Shown here: in pieces, positions 10,824 through 19,024 of the stretch
Layout: every line of letters starts with the position of its first letter
Position numbering within the stretch: the first letter of the stretch is position 1
Notes under the pieces: generated by a model
The model's database searches: none
Told to the model about the DNA's origin: nothing
What the model saw: the letters and a program-made list of their open reading frames with translations, nothing else
Made by a program: the position numbers and the translations under genes
Source of the DNA: an uncultured Cohaesibacter sp.
Lineage (GTDB): Bacteria; Pseudomonadota; Alphaproteobacteria; Rhizobiales; Cohaesibacteraceae
Direction of reading: 5' to 3'
Length of the DNA stretch: 64,000 nt
Assembly: GCF_963678225.1 (NCBI RefSeq)
Contig: NZ_OY782763.1
Span: forward strand, 930,001-994,000

Positions 10824-12983
10824 TCAACGCCCAGGTTCGCTCACCAGAATATCGCGCAGCTTCTCTCCGTTCGAATAAATGGCATACGCTTGGGCAATTC
10901 CCTCTTCAAAATTGCGCGTGTAGCGCTCTGTATCAAACAAGGGCGACGTCATTCTATCCTCTTGCAAATGATCTCGTAGGGCTCTTAGACGGTCTGGCTC
11001 GGTAGCCAATGTCCTGATCAGTTGCTCATAGTCCGCTTGAGAAGATGTAACCAACTCCTCCAGTCCAACCGCATGAAGCAAACTGGCAGCAACCCTCGCA
11101 GGAAACTGATCTCCCACCATCGTCACAACGGGCACTCCAGCCCAAAGCGCATCACTGGCGGTCGTGTGAGCGTTGCAGATAAATGTATCAAGGAACAGGT
11201 CCGCAAGCTTAAATCTTGCCAAATGTTCATTTTGCGGAACCCAATCAGCAAATACGATGCGCGCAGGATCAATGTTGCGTTTCTTCGCCTCGGCTCTGAG
11301 GTTGGTCTTTGCAAATTCATTCGTGTTCAACAGCCATAGAACGCTGCCTTCAACATCAGCAAGCAATCGCATCCAGATATCGAACTCGGACGATGAAATC
11401 TTGTAGCTGTTATTGAAACAGCAGAAGACAAATCCGCTTTCAGGCAGCCCCGCTTCGCTACGCGAGACTAAGTCTGGCGCAATCACCCGGCGATTGTCAT
11501 TGGGTTGATAGCAATTGGGTAAATAAATGACCTTCTCACTGAAGAAAGCTCTTTGCTGTTCTGAAATGACAACCTCATCTGCAATAACATAATCCATGAA
11601 GTCAGCAGCAACGGTTCCGGGATAGCCAAGATAACTAATCTGAACAGGCGCAAGCCCATATTGGAATAGATCGATCCTGGAATCTTTCGTGTATCCTTTG
11701 AGGTCGAAGGCTATGTCTATTTGATGGGAATGCACCAGCTCCAGCACGACATGGTCGGCTTGCGCGCTGATATCAAAAAAATGATCACAATGCTCGACAA
11801 TAAAGTCATGCCATTTACCTCCGGAATGAATACCATAACTGTAAACGAATATTTCAAACCGGGATCTGTCATGGCAGCGCAGAAGACCGGACATCAGATG
11901 CATTGTTGCATGATCGTGAAAGTCCGATCCAAAATAGCCGATCCGAATACGGTCCCCAGCGTCCCATTGTGGCCGCAGATCCGTTTGCTGCTTGAAGGTG
12001 CTACGCGCATAGTTTTTCGCACGCAGATACTGGTTCTCCGCACTGCCATCGTTAGAAATCAGCATGAATGGCTGAATGGGATCAGAAGCAACACCGAGAT
12101 CGGCAACGCCCTTCAGCAATCGCTCCAAACGATCCCAATCGCAAATATTGGCGCAAGTCCAAATCAACTCGGCTCGGGTATCCGCACGGTCAGGCTTGAG
12201 TTCCAAAGACCGTTCAAAAGCCTCGATTGCCTTATCGAACATCATTTGCGTGCGGTAAGTAGAGCCAAGATTATTCAGAGCAAGCGTAGAGAGCGGATCA
12301 TTCTGTAGCGCCTGCTCGAACGCGGCCACGGCCTCTTGTGTTCGCCCCTGAAGGCGCAGCACATTGCCCAGATTATTAAAAGCGTTCGATAAATCGGGCT
12401 GAAACTCGATTGCCTTGCGGTAGAATAATTCTGCTTCTTCAAGCCGCCCCAGGCTTCTGAAGACAACACCCAGATTCACATAGGCCTCGGCATTGCGACT
12501 ATCCAGACTGAGGGCTTTCTGATAGCAATGAACACCCTCTTCAATCTTGCCCTGCTCTCTTAGGGCAACTCCCATCTTGTTTTGCAGATCCGCACTGGAT
12601 GGATCGAGTTCGATCGCCTTTCTATAGGCACCCTCTGCCTCATCCAGCAAACCGAGCTTGCGACTTGCATCCCCCAACAAGGTCCAGGCAACCAAAGAAG
12701 TCGGAACGCTCTTAACAAGAGTGCGTGTGAAATCGCGCGTTTTGCGTGCGTCTTCTTCGGTTTCAAGAGAGAGAACCTGATCAGCAGGCATATTCGAAAG
12801 AGGAGCGCTCCCCTTAACTTGGGTATGTGTCTGGGAAAGCTTTTCAAGCTCACGTTTGGCACTGATGTTGGAAGGATAGCTATCAATAATCGATTGATAT
12901 AAGGCTCTGGCCTTATCAATTTCACCTTTGCGGGCAAATGACTTCGCGCGCGAGAGGGTTTGCCGTACGGAAAGTTTCGTCAT
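10824..12983 (-). CDS. TPR O-GlcNAc-transferase-like (GT41) glycosyltransferase
   Basis: The 719-residue protein has about seven or eight well-formed TPRs (residues about 5-330; for example AEAYVNLGVVFRSLGRLEEA and NAFNNLGNVLRLQGRTQEAV) followed by the SPINDLY/OGT catalytic region (about 345-700): RIRIGYFGSDFHDHATMHLM, IDIAFDLKGYTKDSR, VQISYLGYPGT, FCCFNNSYKISSSEFDIW and LFLDTFICNAHTTASDALWAGVPVVT. Enzymes of this type transfer a sugar to Ser/Thr of proteins bound by the TPRs. Between the rod genes and the flagellins, flagellin is the likely acceptor. It is the second TPR-glycosyltransferase here, and either could be the functional counterpart of Caulobacter FlmG. Confidence 0.82.
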   Translation of the reverse strand: MTKLSVRQTLSRAKSFARKGEIDKARALYQSIIDSYPSNISAKRELEKLSQTHTQVKGSAPLSNMPADQVLSLETEEDARKTRDFTRTLVKSVPTSLVAWTLLGDASRKLGLLDEAEGAYRKAIELDPSSADLQNKMGVALREQGKIEEGVHCYQKALSLDSRNAEAYVNLGVVFRSLGRLEEAELFYRKAIEFQPDLSNAFNNLGNVLRLQGRTQEAVAAFEQALQNDPLSTLALNNLGSTYRTQMMFDKAIEAFERSLELKPDRADTRAELIWTCANICDWDRLERLLKGVADLGVASDPIQPFMLISNDGSAENQYLRAKNYARSTFKQQTDLRPQWDAGDRIRIGYFGSDFHDHATMHLMSGLLRCHDRSRFEIFVYSYGIHSGGKWHDFIVEHCDHFFDISAQADHVVLELVHSHQIDIAFDLKGYTKDSRIDLFQYGLAPVQISYLGYPGTVAADFMDYVIADEVVISEQQRAFFSEKVIYLPNCYQPNDNRRVIAPDLVSRSEAGLPESGFVFCCFNNSYKISSSEFDIWMRLLADVEGSVLWLLNTNEFAKTNLRAEAKKRNIDPARIVFADWVPQNEHLARFKLADLFLDTFICNAHTTASDALWAGVPVVTMVGDQFPARVAASLLHAVGLEELVTSSQADYEQLIRTLATEPDRLRALRDHLQEDRMTSPLFDTERYTRNFEEGIAQAYAIYSNGEKLRDILVSEPGR

Positions 12984-13310: not shown

Positions 13311-14396
13311 TTGCTCCGAAAGAACTGCTTAATACTCAATTTCACCGCCAACTCATATCACTGGGGCTGCTTTGGCACGTCGATCGAAATTTATGATCGT
13401 CTTGTAGAGCGCGGTTACTACGTCAATTATCTGCCTGTCGAGCAAACACACACACCTCTTCCCGAGTTGCCGCAACAAATACCGGACTTTGACAGCAGCG
13501 AGGTCGCCAAACGCTTCACAGCAGCCAATATGCCGATTGTACGAGCCATCACGCAGGCTGATCTCGTTCTCTGCAATGGCGAAGGAACCTTGCATGAGCA
13601 TGCTCTGGGGCCATGGCAACTGCTCTATTTAATGTATTTCGCCAAAAAATACGCAAACAAGACAGTCGCGCTTATCAATCATTCATCCTATCCGAGCGGC
13701 AGTCTTGAGCCATCAGAAAAAGTTGACCAGTTCTATGGTGAAATCCTCAAGCATCTGGACCTCGTAGCAAGCCGCGAAGTCCATTCCACCCAGATTTTGA
13801 AACGTCTGGGCGTCAATGCAGTGCAAAGCTTTGACTGCCTGCCCCTTTTTATCGCGCGCAATGGGTATGACCGTTCCGTCAGTCCGGATGGCCCGATCAT
13901 ATTGTCCGGTGGTGTCTCACTAAACAATGCGCTCGCAGGAGAATTGGCAGCAGCGCTTCAGCCTCTCGTCGATGGCGATAGAAAAGCCGTGTATCTGGCC
14001 GGAGCCAAGAACAGTCCTGCGCCTGAGGACCTCAAGCATTTTGAGCAAATGAAAGGCGAGATTCCTAAGCTTGAACTGCTGAACGCGCAAGACGTGGACA
14101 CCTGGATAGCGGTGATCGGCTCAGCAAGCCTGCTGGTTTCGGCAAGATTTCACCACACGATTGCAGCGGCAAGTCTACAGACCCCGCTCGTATGCCTGCC
14201 CTCGAACACCCCTAAAATAGAGGGCATCTGCTCGATGCTAGGACTTGAGCCCCCCATATCTCCGGCGGAACCGGATTGGCAGAGCAAAGTTCAAGCCGCA
14301 AGCGAACGGGCCTTGAAAGACAACAAACCTGTTGTGAGCGAGGAAACCTGGCAGAGCATTCTGAAGCTGGGGAAAACGAATTTTCTCGACCTCTAG
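13311..14396 (+). CDS. Polysaccharide pyruvyl transferase family protein
   Basis: The 361-residue protein matches the polysaccharide pyruvyl transferase family, which usually adds pyruvate ketals to sugars. Supporting motifs are NFTANSYHWGCFGTSIEIYD near the N-terminus, LVLCNGEGTLHEHA, LDLVASREVHSTQIL and the C-terminal SARFHHTIAAASLQTPLVCL with NTPKIEGICSMLGL. The start is TTG: GGAGG lies 5 nt upstream, and the only nearby ATG (13282) is out of frame. It stands between the TPR-glycosyltransferases and the flagellins, so it may modify the flagellin glycan or a surface polysaccharide; this is inference. Confidence 0.78.
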   Translation: MLRKNCLILNFTANSYHWGCFGTSIEIYDRLVERGYYVNYLPVEQTHTPLPELPQQIPDFDSSEVAKRFTAANMPIVRAITQADLVLCNGEGTLHEHALGPWQLLYLMYFAKKYANKTVALINHSSYPSGSLEPSEKVDQFYGEILKHLDLVASREVHSTQILKRLGVNAVQSFDCLPLFIARNGYDRSVSPDGPIILSGGVSLNNALAGELAAALQPLVDGDRKAVYLAGAKNSPAPEDLKHFEQMKGEIPKLELLNAQDVDTWIAVIGSASLLVSARFHHTIAAASLQTPLVCLPSNTPKIEGICSMLGLEPPISPAEPDWQSKVQAASERALKDNKPVVSEETWQSILKLGKTNFLDL

Positions 14397-14860
14397 CCAC
14401 ATATGAAGCCAGTTCCGATGGCCCCGGATAAAGAAGGTCCCAAAGAGAAGGAATGACAAAGAAGAAATGACGCGGCTATTTTTTGCGCCCTTCCACCCCG
14501 TTTTCCCTTCGGCGATCATGCACAGGGCCGCGTAAATCCCCTCATTTCAACGCAGCTTTTCTTCCAAAGATTACCAGCCGAACATAACTTTTAAAAATTT
14601 TCTCTGTGCAATTGAAACACTCACCTGCCAAATGCGTCGGTTTTCCTCACCCAGCCTTCAACGAGACGTCCCATATTTCCAAATTTGGTACACTCGTAAA
14701 AACTCTAGTTGGTTGTTCACAAAGCACTTCCCGCCCTGCAATTCTATCTATCCATATTTTGGTAACCATAGGACAGAAACGCTTACTCTCTATTAACCTT
14801 GCTATCCGTTAACCAACTATTTTTACAAATGATTCTGGTTTTGGCGCGCATTGTTCGGAT
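14397..14860. other. Gene-less region upstream of flagellin 1
   Basis: No convincing gene is present. The stretch is AT-rich toward its right end and has two TTAACC elements (near 14792 and 14808) 12 nt apart. A TTGGCGCG at 14841-14848 resembles a sigma-54 -24 element but lacks GC at the -12 position. The flagellin promoter must lie here but cannot be named with confidence. Confidence 0.5.
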
Positions 14861-14931
14861 GACCGCGAAAGGTCGTTGTCCACGAAGGACGAAGCCCACG
14901 AAGGGCTGACGAGTACTAACCAGAAAGGTTA
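14861..14931 (+). promoter_or_regulatory. Array of four stem-loops in the flagellin 1 leader
   Basis: Four consecutive small hairpins precede the start codon. 1: GACC/GGTC, loop GCGAAA (14861-14874). 2: GTCC/GGAC, loop ACGAA (14878-14890). 3: AGCCC/GGGCT, loop ACGAA (14893-14907). 4: TAACC/GGTTA, loop AGAAA (14917-14931). All close with CC/GG and expose a purine-rich loop; the first three are 16-17 nt apart. The fourth holds the AAAGG ribosome binding site, 10 nt before ATG 14939. FlbT is known in Caulobacter to bind a flagellin mRNA leader and shorten its life; that these are its sites here is inference. Confidence 0.6.
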
Positions 14932-14938
14932 TGGATAA

Positions 14939-16330
14939 ATGTCCGATATCACTCTCTCCGCCGGCGTACGCGCAAACCTGCTCTCCCTGCAGAACACCGC
15001 AGACATGATGCAGACCACTCAGGGACGCCTGTCAACGGGTAAAAAAGTCAACTCCGCGCTTGATAACCCAACCAACTTCTTCACTTCGGCAAACCTGAAC
15101 AGCCGTGCTAACGAGCTGAACAACCTGATGGACTCCATCGGTAACGCTACCAAGGTTCTCGAAGCTGCTGATAACGGTATCTCTGCGATTACCGATCTGG
15201 TTGAAAGTGCGCAGTCCACGGTGAACCAGGCTCTTGCAGCCAACGCTTCCAACTCTGGCACCAATATTCAGGGCACATCAGGCATCAACACCTCTGGCGC
15301 ATCTGAATCAACGGCCAAGGAACGCGCAGAAGGCATCGCGCTCAACAGCGCAAATATCGGCTTTGCTGCAGGCACCAATTTCACCGTCGAATCCAAGTCC
15401 GAATCTGGTGTAACCAAGACCTTCGACCTGATTGAGCATTTCTCCAACACTGGGGAAAGCCTCACTGACGGCGACCTCGACACCACTGGTTCTCAGGCCT
15501 ACACCGTCAAAGATCTGGTCGATGACATCAACGCTTCTGGCGTTGCGACCGCCAAGATCACGGAAGACGGTCGTCTTGATATCAGTGCCAACGGCAACTC
15601 CGAACTGACCCTGACCATTTCCCATGATGACGGTGCCGCCGCTTCTGCTGGTGCTCAGGATACTTCGGTTTGGGCTGGCCTCGGCTTCGGCACCTTCGCA
15701 GACATCGACCCGGGTAGCGATGGCGCCACCGATCCAGGTGACACCGACGCAACCTTCACCGGAGCCGCCTCTGGTACCGACGACGTTCTGACCATCAAGA
15801 ACTATGCTGGTACACAGGATGCTTCCAACACTGAGCTGGTTGCGCAGTTCAATGATATCATGGATCAGATCGATGAACTCGCTCGCGACTCCAGCTTCAA
15901 TGGTATCAACCTGATCAACGGAACGGGCAGTGATCTGACTGTTGCCTTCAACGAAAAACGTGATGAGACCAAGTCCGAGCTGACCATCGAGTCCGCAGAC
16001 CTGAGCTCCTCCGGCCTCGGCTTGGCTGATGCAACTTCGTTGAATACGGAAGACTCGAACAATCAGCTCGATGCTTTGTCCGAGGCTCTTTCTACGCTGC
16101 GTACACAGGCTTCCAGCTTTGGTTCTCAGTTGAACACGGTGACGATCCGCGAGGAATTCACCAAGGACATGATCAATACCCTGCAGACCGGTGCAGATGA
16201 TCTGGTTCTTGCTGACACCAACGAGGAAGGTGCAAACATGCTCGCACTGCAGACCCGTCAGTCTCTGTCGACCACGGCTCTGTCCCTGGCATCGCAGGCC
16301 GACCAGGCAGTTCTCAGCTTCCTGCGCTAA
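14939..16330 (+). CDS. Flagellin 1
   Basis: Filament subunit of 463 residues. The N-terminal D0/D1 helices (residues about 3-90, with LSLQNTADMMQTTQGRLSTG and VNSALDNPTNFFTS) and the C-terminal helices (MINTLQTGADDLVLADTNEE, then QTRQSLSTTALSLASQADQA) are those of alphaproteobacterial flagellins. The surface part is rich in Ser, Thr, Asp and Gly, plausible for O-glycosylation. ATG 14939 is chosen because AAAGG lies 10 nt upstream; the ATG at 14931 is too close to it and in another frame. A strong terminator follows at 16354-16382. The central domain is nearly identical to that of flagellin 2. Confidence 0.95.
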   Translation: MSDITLSAGVRANLLSLQNTADMMQTTQGRLSTGKKVNSALDNPTNFFTSANLNSRANELNNLMDSIGNATKVLEAADNGISAITDLVESAQSTVNQALAANASNSGTNIQGTSGINTSGASESTAKERAEGIALNSANIGFAAGTNFTVESKSESGVTKTFDLIEHFSNTGESLTDGDLDTTGSQAYTVKDLVDDINASGVATAKITEDGRLDISANGNSELTLTISHDDGAAASAGAQDTSVWAGLGFGTFADIDPGSDGATDPGDTDATFTGAASGTDDVLTIKNYAGTQDASNTELVAQFNDIMDQIDELARDSSFNGINLINGTGSDLTVAFNEKRDETKSELTIESADLSSSGLGLADATSLNTEDSNNQLDALSEALSTLRTQASSFGSQLNTVTIREEFTKDMINTLQTGADDLVLADTNEEGANMLALQTRQSLSTTALSLASQADQAVLSFLR

Positions 16331-16353
16331 TTTCAAAGCACCATACGAACGCG

Positions 16354-16382
16354 AAACGGGGCCAAATGGCCCCGTTTTTTTT
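16354..16382 (+). terminator. Rho-independent terminator of flagellin 1
   Basis: A 10-bp stem (AAACGGGGCC / GGCCCCGTTT) with tetraloop AAAT runs directly into a stretch of eight T. It ends the flagellin 1 transcript 24 nt after the stop codon, so flagellin 2 must have its own promoter. Confidence 0.93.
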
Positions 16383-16554
16383 AACCTTTCGCCCTCCCCC
16401 TTAAGATAAAATTAAATTTCCAATCATTTCCAAGTTTCTGATCCGACACAGAAATCGGCTCTATTTGTACAACCGGAAACGAAACACTTTGTTTAGGTTA
16501 ATACGAAAGGTCTGGTTAACCTTAAATTAGGGTTTACGCGCGAACATCTATTTA

Positions 16555-16609
16555 AGCCTCAGAAGGAGGCTGAATAAACAATATCTGTGTGTGAGTACCC
16601 AGAAAGGTA
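16555..16609 (+). promoter_or_regulatory. Two stem-loops in the flagellin 2 leader
   Basis: Hairpin 1 is AGCCTC/GAGGCT with loop AGAAG (16555-16571). Hairpin 2 is TACC/GGTA with loop CAGAAA (16596-16609) and contains the ribosome binding site AAAGG. The block CCAGAAAGGT is identical to that in front of flagellin 1, and all loops are purine-rich. A palindromic GGTTAACC lies upstream at 16514-16521. As with flagellin 1, FlbT is a candidate partner. Confidence 0.55.
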
Positions 16610-16614
16610 ACCCA

Positions 16615-18021
16615 ATGTCTTCGGATATCACTCTCTCAGCCGGCGTGCGTTCAAACCTTTTGTCCCTGCAAAAAACCGCGGACATGATGTCAACAACGCA
16701 AAATCGCCTGGCAACCGGTAAAAAAGTCAACTCGGCGTTGGATAACCCAACCAACTTCTTTACCTCTGAAAGCCTCGGCGCGCGCGCCAACGACCTTAGC
16801 AATCTGCTAGACGGCATTTCAAACTCGATCAAAACGATCGAAGCTGCTGACAATGGTATCTCCGCGATTACCGATCTGGTGGAAAGTGCACAGGCAACCG
16901 TTCGTCAGGCTCAGTCAAACAACAATTCCAACACCGGCACCAACATTCAGGGCAACCGAAGCATCAATACCTCGGGCGCATCTGAATCAACAGCCAAGGA
17001 ACGTGCTGAAGGCATCGCCCTCAACAGCGCAAACATCGGCTTCGCCGCAGGCACCAACTTCACCGTTGAATCCAAGTCTGAATCGGGCGTAACCAAAACC
17101 TTCGATCTTGTTGAACATTTCTCCAATACAGGGGAAAGCCTCACAGATGGTGATCTGGACACCACGGGTTCTCAGGCTTACACCATTAAAGACCTGGTCG
17201 ATGACATCAACGCCTCTGGTGTTGCAACTGCCAAGATCACGGAAGACGGTCGTCTGGATATCAGTGCCAACGGCAACGCAGAACTAACCCTGTCAATCTC
17301 CCATGATGATGGCGCAGCAGCCTCTGCTGGTGCTCAGGACACCTCCGTTTGGGCAGGTCTTGGCTTTGGCCAATTTGCCGACATCGACCCGGATGGTGCA
17401 GGTCCCTTAACCGCAACGGATCCCGGTGGTACCGATGCAACCTTCACCGGCGCGGCTTCCGGTACCAACGACGTTCTGACCATCAAGAACTTTGCTGGTA
17501 CACAGGATGCTTCCAACACCGAACTGGTTGATCAGTATAACGGCATTATGGATCAGATTGATGAGCTTGCTCGCGACTCCAGCTATAACGGCATCAACCT
17601 CATCGACGGTTCAAGCAATGACCTGACTGTGTCGTTCAACGAAAAACGTGATGAGACCAAGTCCGAGCTGACCATCCAGTCCGCAGACTTGACCGCTTCC
17701 GGTTTGGCTCTGACCGATGCAACGACACTGGACACCGACGAGTCCAACCTCAAGCTTGACGCCCTGTCTGACGCTTTGATTACCCTGCGCAAACAGGCAT
17801 CAACCTTCGGTTCCAACCTTTCCACCGTGCAGATCCGCAAGGATTACACCAAGGAAATGATCAACACCCTGCAAACCGGTGCAGACAACCTGGTCCTGGC
17901 AGATTCGAACGAGGAAGGCGCCAACATGTTGGCTCTGCAAACCCGTCAGACGCTGTCTACCACAGCTTTGTCTCTGGCATCGCAGGCCGATCAGGCAGTT
18001 ACCAGCTTCCTACGAGCTTAA
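16615..18021 (+). CDS. Flagellin 2
   Basis: Second flagellin, 468 residues, with the same organisation as flagellin 1. ATG 16615 is chosen rather than the in-frame GTG at 16591 because it gives MSSDITLSAGVR, aligned with the other flagellin (MSDITLSAGVR), and has AAAGG 9 nt upstream. Against flagellin 1 the first ~112 aligned residues differ at about 28 positions, whereas the next 136 differ at only 4. A short insertion (about five residues, around PDGAGPLTATDP) distinguishes the centre. A terminator follows at 18042-18076. Confidence 0.95.
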   Translation: MSSDITLSAGVRSNLLSLQKTADMMSTTQNRLATGKKVNSALDNPTNFFTSESLGARANDLSNLLDGISNSIKTIEAADNGISAITDLVESAQATVRQAQSNNNSNTGTNIQGNRSINTSGASESTAKERAEGIALNSANIGFAAGTNFTVESKSESGVTKTFDLVEHFSNTGESLTDGDLDTTGSQAYTIKDLVDDINASGVATAKITEDGRLDISANGNAELTLSISHDDGAAASAGAQDTSVWAGLGFGQFADIDPDGAGPLTATDPGGTDATFTGAASGTNDVLTIKNFAGTQDASNTELVDQYNGIMDQIDELARDSSYNGINLIDGSSNDLTVSFNEKRDETKSELTIQSADLTASGLALTDATTLDTDESNLKLDALSDALITLRKQASTFGSNLSTVQIRKDYTKEMINTLQTGADNLVLADSNEEGANMLALQTRQTLSTTALSLASQADQAVTSFLRA

Positions 18022-18041
18022 TTCGGCTCAAAAGACACGTA

Positions 18042-18076
18042 AGAAAGGCGGAGCAATACTCCGCCTTTCTTTGTTT
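18042..18076 (+). terminator. Rho-independent terminator of flagellin 2
   Basis: A 12-bp stem (AGAAAGGCGGAG / CTCCGCCTTTCT) with loop CAATA is followed by TTGTTTT. It separates flagellin 2 from flbT-flaF. Confidence 0.88.
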
Positions 18077-18279
18077 TATGGGAAACGTCTTTTCTTCTAT
18101 TTGATCTTTGCAAGACAATCAGAATAAATTACAGAAGCAGTCAGTGGTTGGGTTGTGCGTCACGGGAATTTTCAAAACAATTTCTCTGAGCGGTTTATTA
18201 ATACAACGCAGCTATTATTGATCCTATCAAAAATACCAGATAGACGCAGACATTCACTTGTGTGAATAGAGGAATAAAG

Positions 18280-18678
18280 ATGTCTCTTAAAATAGAACTG
18301 CGCCCAGGCGAGCGTATTATTATCGGAAACAGTGTCATTACAAACGGTGACCACCGTGCGCGCTTCTATGTCGACGGACAGGCGCCAATATTGCGCGAAA
18401 AAGACATCCTCACATCCGAAACGGCAAATAGTCCTGCAAAAAGAATATATCTTTGCATACAACTTATGTATCTGGCGCAAGATCTAGCCGAGCATAAGGA
18501 CATGTACTTCACTTTGGTAAATGATTTTTTACACGCAGCCCCCAGTGCGTTAACGATAATTGACAGCGTAAATAATAAAATATTAACCGGTTCCTTTTAT
18601 CCTGCATTAAAAGAAGCAAAAGCTCTCATAAGGTTCGAAGAGGAGTTACTTCGGAATGTACAACCATTCAGCGGCTAG
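18280..18678 (+). CDS. flbT: FlbT, flagellin post-transcriptional regulator
   Basis: FlbT binds the leader of flagellin mRNA and destabilises it until the hook is complete (known from Caulobacter). The 132-residue product has the family start MSLKIELRPGERIIIGNSVI, and the following KRIYLCIQLMYLAQDL helix. The reading frame is open from GTG 18262, but ATG 18280 has the ribosome binding site AGAGGAAT 7-8 nt upstream and matches the family start. Its last 23 nt overlap flaF. Confidence 0.92.
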   Translation: MSLKIELRPGERIIIGNSVITNGDHRARFYVDGQAPILREKDILTSETANSPAKRIYLCIQLMYLAQDLAEHKDMYFTLVNDFLHAAPSALTIIDSVNNKILTGSFYPALKEAKALIRFEEELLRNVQPFSG

Positions 18679-19024
18679 AGCTTATCAGGACGCCAGTTCT
18701 CATGCAGGGTCCCCCAGGGAGCGTGAAGCAGCTTTGTTGATCAAGGCTGCTGCCAAGTTGCAGAAAACAAAATCTGCAGACACCACCCCCGCGCAACTGG
18801 ATGAGGCTCTGACATTCAACCGCAAGATCTGGACCCTTTTTGTAGGCGAGCTCATGAGCGAAGATCATGAAATGCCTAAGGAATTGCGTCAGAATCTGGT
18901 GAATCTCGGCATCTTCACATTCAACCATACGCTGCGGATCATGACGGACCCCAAATCAGCGACCGTTGATAGTCTGATCAACATCAACCGTAATATCGCT
19001 GAAGGTCTACGCGCTGACGGCTAG
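18656..19024 (+). CDS. flaF: FlaF, flagellin synthesis regulator/chaperone
   Basis: FlaF acts with FlbT on flagellin synthesis and secretion in alphaproteobacteria. The 122-residue product shows the family pattern: AARAYQDASSHAGSPREREA at the start, LDEALTFNRKIWTLFVGELM in the middle and a final LININRNIAEGL helix. It overlaps flbT by 23 nt, so the two are probably translationally coupled. Confidence 0.93.
   Translation: MYNHSAARAYQDASSHAGSPREREAALLIKAAAKLQKTKSADTTPAQLDEALTFNRKIWTLFVGELMSEDHEMPKELRQNLVNLGIFTFNHTLRIMTDPKSATVDSLININRNIAEGLRADG

Follow-up and report, generated by a model that had tools for sequence, protein, structure and literature searches.

The closest described counterpart of the leader analysed here is the 5′ UTR of a flagellin mRNA in Caulobacter crescentus, which Anderson and Gober reportedly found in 2000 to be bound by FlbT. 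It resembles our locus in being a flagellin leader, in its association with FlbT and FlaF, and in the post-transcriptional control that we propose below. CsrA has operators on the flagellin mRNAs of other bacteria, as in Campylobacter flaA and, as a further case, the Bacillus hag mRNA. Two reviews touch on the Caulobacter site; one reports that FlbT binds the flagellin 5′ UTR (PMC3930126), and the other calls this binding proposed and its mechanism unresolved (PMC4347634). In our locus the FlbT and FlaF genes adjoin the flagellins. According to a further paper, Caulobacter FlbT and the flagellin FljJ repress translation until FljJ is exported, and the 2 proteins interact in two-hybrid tests (PMC7591256). 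In Brucella, FlbT is described in a review as a proposed activator (PMC4347634), which counts against reading FlbT as a repressor. In other bacteria the GGA motifs that CsrA binds often sit in a hairpin loop or cover the Shine-Dalgarno (SD) sequence, and in C. jejuni the motif is a loop AAGGA; the paper that describes this already suggests that FlaF and FlbT form an analogous system (PMC4894983). The hairpins described below share with CsrA operators GGA-type motifs that are often in loops or overlap the SD sequence, but their loops are AGRA or nGRA, often with GAA rather than GGA, and the genomes in and near Cohaesibacter have no CsrA.

Another described system is the flg-Rhizobiales RNA (RF01736), which is likewise a flagellar leader with repeated purine-loop hairpins (GGGA, in CUUGGGAGAG, with a similar GGGGAGA further on) but precedes a rod gene of the FlgE/F/G type, not a flagellin, in both loci checked (L031 and L060). 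RF01736, with a gathering score of 55 bits, had no match in positions 14300–18700 of the window (the whole 64-kb stretch of DNA that was analysed) at E ≤ 5, in 10 flagellin loci at E ≤ 1, or in the window's own genome under strict filters. No Rfam family reached its cut-off in window 14300–18700 or in 10 flagellin loci. This lack of an RF01736 match, together with the presence of a flagellin rather than a rod gene downstream, sets the leader apart from flg-Rhizobiales RNA. Across the order, RF01736 is present at E ≤ 0.001 in 46 of 297 genomes, 9 of them above the cut-off, and the 4 matches that were aligned have GGGA-type loops. The flg-Rhizobiales RNAs of L031 (1501–1643) and L060 (1501–1609) carry GGGA-type hairpins, 2 of them in L031, and GGGGAG near the start; these RNAs may be under the same regulator as the flagellin element. 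As judged by titles and the openings of abstracts, the literature holds no description that we could find of the flagellin-leader hairpin element treated here or of an exclusion between FlbT and CsrA.

The initial annotation of the window described 4 consecutive stem-loops, each closed by CC/GG, in front of flagellin 1, the first 3 evenly spaced and the last one containing the ribosome binding site. All of these features are present:

14861–14874, forward strand: hairpin 1, GACC-GCGAAA-GGTC (genus consensus GACC-nnGRAn-GGTC), in the minimum-energy fold and the strict scan
14878–14890, forward strand: hairpin 2, GTCC-ACGAA-GGAC, a variable middle hairpin, in the minimum-energy fold and the strict scan
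14894–14906, forward strand: hairpin 3, GCCC-ACGAA-GGGC, an extra copy found in 3 of 16 genus loci, in the minimum-energy fold and the strict scan
14918–14930, forward strand: fourth hairpin, the SD hairpin, AACC-AGAAA-GGTT, with the Shine-Dalgarno-like AGAAAGG in its loop and 3′ arm
14939–16330, forward strand: flagellin 1, the putatively controlled gene (Pfam Flagellin_N and Flagellin_C)

The hairpins start 17 nt (first to second), 16 nt (second to third) and 24 nt (third to fourth) apart. When the RNA of 14850–14945 was folded, all 4 stems lay within the minimum-energy structure at −31.4 kcal/mol, with a z of −3.1 and 1 of 200 shuffles equally stable. When the 64 kb were scanned strictly, for perfect stems of 4 bp or more closed by CC/GG around a loop of 5–6 nt, 76 hairpins came up, and 3 or 4 of them fell within 76 nt at a single place, the leader of flagellin 1. 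Dinucleotide shuffles of the leader never contained 3 or more strict hairpins (0/5000), and 4 hairpins appeared in 1 of 5000 when any loop of 4–8 nt was allowed.

Comparison within Cohaesibacter used 16 flagellin 1 loci (that of the window among them), which come from 16 of the 18 genomes of the genus; the G017 leader and G008, in which flagellin had no match, are not included. Both the stem and the loop GRA of hairpin 1 (GACC-nnGRAn-GGTC) are kept in 16/16 loci, and the SD hairpin AACC-AGAAA-GGTT is identical in all 16, with GAGTA shortly 5′ of it. The SD hairpin is preceded by 3 hairpins in 3 loci, 2 in 9 and 1 in 4, that is, by two, one or no middle hairpins after the first. Middle loops drift across the genus (ACGAA, AAGAA, ATAAG, ATAAA, AAGTAAT and GAACAT). 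Compensatory changes in related leaders, whose absence the initial annotation had named as refuting, were found in the stems of the middle hairpins (GTCC/GGAC, GCCC/GGGC, GGCC/GGCC and GATCC/GGATC among genus-mates). Since neither the hairpin 1 stem nor the SD hairpin stem varies in the genus, these two yield no covariation there; in an RNAalifold run on 11 of the loci the outer stems did not vary and hairpin 2 changed on both sides, with an overall covariation term near 0. All loops of the window's array have GAA and none has GGA, but the genus-mates L010–L014, L018 and L022 have GGA in hairpin 1. The suggestion that regular repetition of a single loop is the key to the array is not supported, given that hairpin number varies between 3, 2 and 1, middle loops are unconserved and nnGRAn and AGAAA alone are kept. 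Hairpins 2 and 3 may well result from a recent duplication limited to the window's clade. Judged from sequence, the array is a real RNA structure in which repetition is a local elaboration and the first and last hairpins are the constant parts.

A simpler layout of 2 hairpins recurs beyond the genus, and in the window it precedes flagellin 2:

16553–16617, forward strand: flagellin 2 leader, two-hairpin form, with GCCTC-AGAAG-GAGGC and a possible SD hairpin TACC-CAGAAA-GGTA (41.2 bits with the R1 model described below)
16615–18021, forward strand: flagellin 2 (Pfam Flagellin_N and Flagellin_C)

The general layout, seen in flagellin 2 and in many other families of the Hyphomicrobiales, pairs an AGRAn-loop hairpin, about 45–60 nt upstream of the start, with a short SD hairpin whose loop is nAGRAA. 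We extracted 193 leaders, kept 147 after filters on length, start motif and N and the removal of 5 named non-flagellin ORFs, and reduced these to 100 that were non-redundant. An upstream AGRA-loop hairpin is present in 40 of the 100 (shuffles: mean 3.0, max 9), an SD hairpin with an AGRA loop in 43 (mean 3.7, max 10) and both in 19 (mean 0.1, max 1). When 4-mers were counted in upstream-hairpin loops with no motif preset, AGAA (22) and AGGA (20) were the commonest. Neither strict hairpin is present in 36 of the 100 leaders, which counts against an operator read by FlbT. Longer arrays also exist elsewhere, with 4 such hairpins in each of the G038 leaders L068 and L070 and, by eye, 3 short hairpins in several Bosea leaders.

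Covariation was scored on 24 of 29 leaders, all of them picked for an upstream hairpin, so that pair counts lean towards structure; L026, L079, L085, L175 and L184 were dropped (4 with a 4-nt upstream loop, 1 with a long spacer). Changes on both sides occur in 9 of the 10 pairs of the two-hairpin element in these chosen leaders, and the upstream pairs are compensated in 6 of 6. Scored as a whole, the structure had a covariation of 0.496, versus 0.199 for shuffled alignments and 0.080–0.185 for slid structures. Because the 24 rows were chosen for the upstream hairpin, we give more weight to the shuffles and to the genome search. The 2 helices are not equally well supported, with 66.7% of cells pairing in the SD helix versus 94.4% in the upstream helix. 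RNAalifold on the 24 leaders predicted the upstream helix alone, without the SD helix, and the minimum-energy fold of the flagellin 2 leader contains the first hairpin without the SD hairpin. On these folding results the SD hairpin is the weaker half of the two-hairpin element.

For the genome search, we built a covariance model (R1) on the two-hairpin form and ran it on 297 genomes of the order at E ≤ 0.05. It gave 78 matches in 65 genomes, 75 of which are at flagellin starts. All 78 were checked by tblastn, and 73 lead into a flagellin N-terminus; in the other 2 of the 75, the start was set by coordinates (L267) or the locus stops at the contig edge after the ATG and the codons for MSDI (L259). 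Genomes G061 and above, which contributed no loci to R1 training and some of which may be close to named records that were used, have 53 of their 56 matches at flagellin starts. R1 is insensitive, with no match in 232 of the 297 genomes, flagellated or not. In the window, its best match and the genome's sole match at E ≤ 0.05 is the flagellin 2 leader, itself a training sequence; the flagellin 1 leader ranks second at 12.7 bits and E 0.35, which is not significant. The flagellin 1 leader can thus be tied to the two-hairpin element by its layout, its loops and its SD hairpin, and not by a significant model score. The finding of the initial annotation is sound and broader than it was drawn, being a conserved hairpin element of flagellin leaders, probably an operator, with a clade-specific array in the window.

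The initial annotation placed FlbT 3 kb downstream, and Pfam confirms it there, together with FlaF (18262–19024):

18280–18678, forward strand: FlbT, the proposed reader (ORF from 18262, inner ATG at 18280; PF07378, E 1.8e-41)
18656–19024, forward strand: FlaF, the proposed partner (PF07309, E 9.7e-34)

The genome has a second flagellar locus (G000 contig C2, 1587000–1606900, L346) with its own FlbT (1589463–1589918) and a flagellin of another type (1602166–1603122).

FlbT is likely the reader of the hairpins. We put slightly better than even chances on the array being a multi-site, cis-acting operator that governs flagellin translation, with FlbT as its reader where other bacteria use CsrA. 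Sequence comparison itself shows that the leader hairpins exist and are conserved, that the variable stems covary and that the two-hairpin element is placed almost exclusively at flagellin starts. The FlbT reading is favoured because of the hairpin structure and its conservation, the uniqueness of the array in the window, the AGRA enrichment, the concentration of R1 matches at flagellin starts, the absence of CsrA from the FlbT-bearing genomes tested and the binding of FlbT to a Caulobacter leader reported in reviews. The operator core would be 2 hairpins with GRA-type loops, one upstream and one enclosing the SD sequence, and a FlbT dimer or oligomer would grip the upstream hairpin or hairpins and the SD hairpin simultaneously. 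Ribosomes would be kept from entering the bound leader, and the mRNA left open to decay, for as long as the hook-basal body is unfinished; on its completion FlaF and exported flagellin would lift the block. The extra middle hairpins of the window's Cohaesibacter clade would then be added binding sites or serve to tune affinity. Such an operator would work like the CsrA operators on flagellin mRNAs of other bacteria, with FlbT replacing CsrA, and the row of hairpins is probably a switch that restrains the filament protein until the flagellum is ready. The multi-site RNA-binding target read by FlbT that was first proposed remains the best-fitting reading, while the rigid array of one loop does not. 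The variation of loops within the array (GCGAAA, ACGAA, AGAAA) counts against a FlbT operator, in that any sequence readout must be loose. The reading is also weakened by the failure of the SD helix to appear in the RNAalifold prediction or the flagellin 2 fold, by the low R1 score of the flagellin 1 leader and the many genomes without an R1 match, and, as detailed below, by the lack of R1 matches in FljK-like loci and an excess of AGRA hairpins in FlbT-negative genomes as well. A conserved, covarying and flagellin-specific hairpin element offers a concrete candidate for a FlbT binding site across the whole order.

The leader might instead work without any protein, its 5′ stem-loops shielding a very abundant mRNA from decay or forming a ribosome standby site that loads the 30S subunit through SD-like loops. 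Many loops with their 3′ arms do resemble the SD sequence (AGAAAGG, and AGAAGGAGG in the flagellin 2 hairpin), and within the genus the middle hairpins differ in both number and loop. Hairpins that only stabilise, however, could have any loop, whereas AGRA is strongly enriched and is kept in some upstream hairpins that have no SD-like 3′ arm, such as CGCTT-AGAAA-AAGCG (L083) and TCGATC-CAGAAGC-GATCGA (L077). The near restriction of the two-hairpin element to flagellins also argues against such a device, which we consider unlikely.

The distribution of CsrA bears on whether FlbT or some other factor reads the hairpins. Of 61 genomes that belong to the genus or lie close to it, 45 have FlbT and none, the window's included, has CsrA (PF02599), which speaks against a leader under CsrA control there. 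In the class, we compared 22 flagellated, nearly complete FlbT-negative genomes, hand-picked mostly by completeness from those with flagellin and without a FlbT match and not comprising all such genomes, with 40 of 99 FlbT-positive genomes. CsrA is present in 17 of the 22 picked FlbT-negative genomes versus 0 of the 40 picked FlbT-positive ones (Fisher 3.6e-11, ignoring relatedness), and by family in 12/15 versus 0/37, relatedness again being ignored. Similar hairpins are found on both sides. Among 30 FlbT-negative leaders, an upstream AGRA hairpin was seen in 6 (0.78 expected) and an SD hairpin in 9 (1.72 expected). The 6 leaders with the upstream hairpin are all in CsrA-bearing genomes, as are 25 of the 30 leaders; 3 of the 6 come from the same genus, and 5 of the 6 have CAGGA(T/C)G loops. 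In the genomes tested, FlbT and CsrA exclude each other and similar hairpins go with either, which raises the testable question of whether FlbT took over the operator of CsrA.

FljK-like leaders from FlbT-bearing genomes of the class present a different picture from the AGRA pair. R1 had no match in 30 FljK-like loci, 28 of them from FlbT-bearing genomes. Among 38 FljK-like leaders from FlbT-bearing genomes, upstream AAAA loops number 9 (shuffles 0.95) and SD hairpins 14 (shuffles 1.97), and upstream AGRA loops, at 3 (shuffles 0.99, max 4), show no clear excess. Nine class leaders without a FlbT match, L152 of genome G460 among them, have upstream AGRA in 1, upstream AAAA in 2 and an SD hairpin in 3. 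Lineages may thus use different loop codes, or it may be that FlbT does not read the AGRA code. In several FljK-like alphaproteobacterial leaders (L133–L135, L139, L140, L350 and L366), tandem hairpins with AAAA-type loops (GGGC-AAAAn-GCCC, GAGC-AAAAn-GCTC) sit before a CC-AGAAT-GG or similar ribosome site and form a second loop class, unlike the AGRA pair; L347 has AGAA loops in place of AAAA.

These observations also bear on the idea that another RNA-binding protein or a small RNA is the reader and that FlbT acts on flagellin protein or its export alone. A phmmer search of FlbT against PDB sequences gave nothing below E 0.76 and no FlbT–RNA structure was found, FlbT interacts with FljJ in the two-hybrid tests cited above, and FlbT-negative genomes have similar hairpins, all of which would fit this idea. 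The FlbT-negative leaders with an upstream hairpin, however, are all from genomes that encode CsrA, which is known to read loops of this kind, and CsrA is missing from the FlbT-bearing genomes tested. We regard a reader other than FlbT as quite improbable.

We also considered that FlbT is a diverged CsrA, with a five-strand N-terminal domain descended from CsrA and a helical tail that senses flagellin, which kept reading GRA-loop flagellin operators after CsrA was lost. If true, this would explain why FlbT and CsrA never occur together in the genomes tested and why hairpins are alike in both branches. The N-termini show some likeness (LxLxPGExxxxNGxVI...ILREKDI in FlbT, LxLTRxxGExxxIGDxI...VHREEI in CsrA), and the AF2 model of FlbT (pLDDT 92.1) has 5 strands followed by helices. 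The strands are predicted in the order E2-6, E11-14, E17-20, E26-30 and E36-38, which we take to fit the strand order of CsrA. A Pfam scan of 20 FlbT proteins did not list CsrA, and CsrA was not among the matches listed by Foldseek or VIA-align for the FlbT model. Alignment of FlbT and CsrA by hhalign was weak (probability 1.3–2.8%, E 0.016–0.04), with 5 of 150 column-shuffled profiles as good. Descent of FlbT from CsrA is a speculative idea that we rate as doubtful indeed.

Least probable is that a transcription factor binds the unvarying GACC-N6-GGTC of hairpin 1 as a dyad in DNA, with the SD hairpin alone acting in RNA, for although the hairpin 1 stem is invariant without covariation in the 16 genus loci and perfect dyads can bind proteins on DNA, its loop GRA is kept, which a dyad reader would not need, and the corresponding stem in other families changes with compensation.

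Several further features of the locus and the searches are of interest. Upstream of both leaders (14800–14850 and 16505–16545) are TTAACC-type elements, conserved in genus-mates, which we take to resemble CtrA sites; this suggests a putative CtrA-type flagellin promoter 5′ of each. The flagellins are adjoined by a TPR and glycosyltransferase family 41 protein on the reverse strand (10824–12983) and a polysaccharide pyruvyl transferase on the forward strand (13311–14396), and the layout of the former resembles that of the flagellin glycosyltransferase FlmG (PMC7591256). The nearest flagellin among named records is that of Cohaesibacter marisflavi, at 99% identity (L161), which places the window in Cohaesibacter. 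Outside flagellin loci, stretches containing CTCAGGATGAG in L308 (G290) and L312 (G280) mimic the upstream hairpin and are perhaps dispersed repeats.
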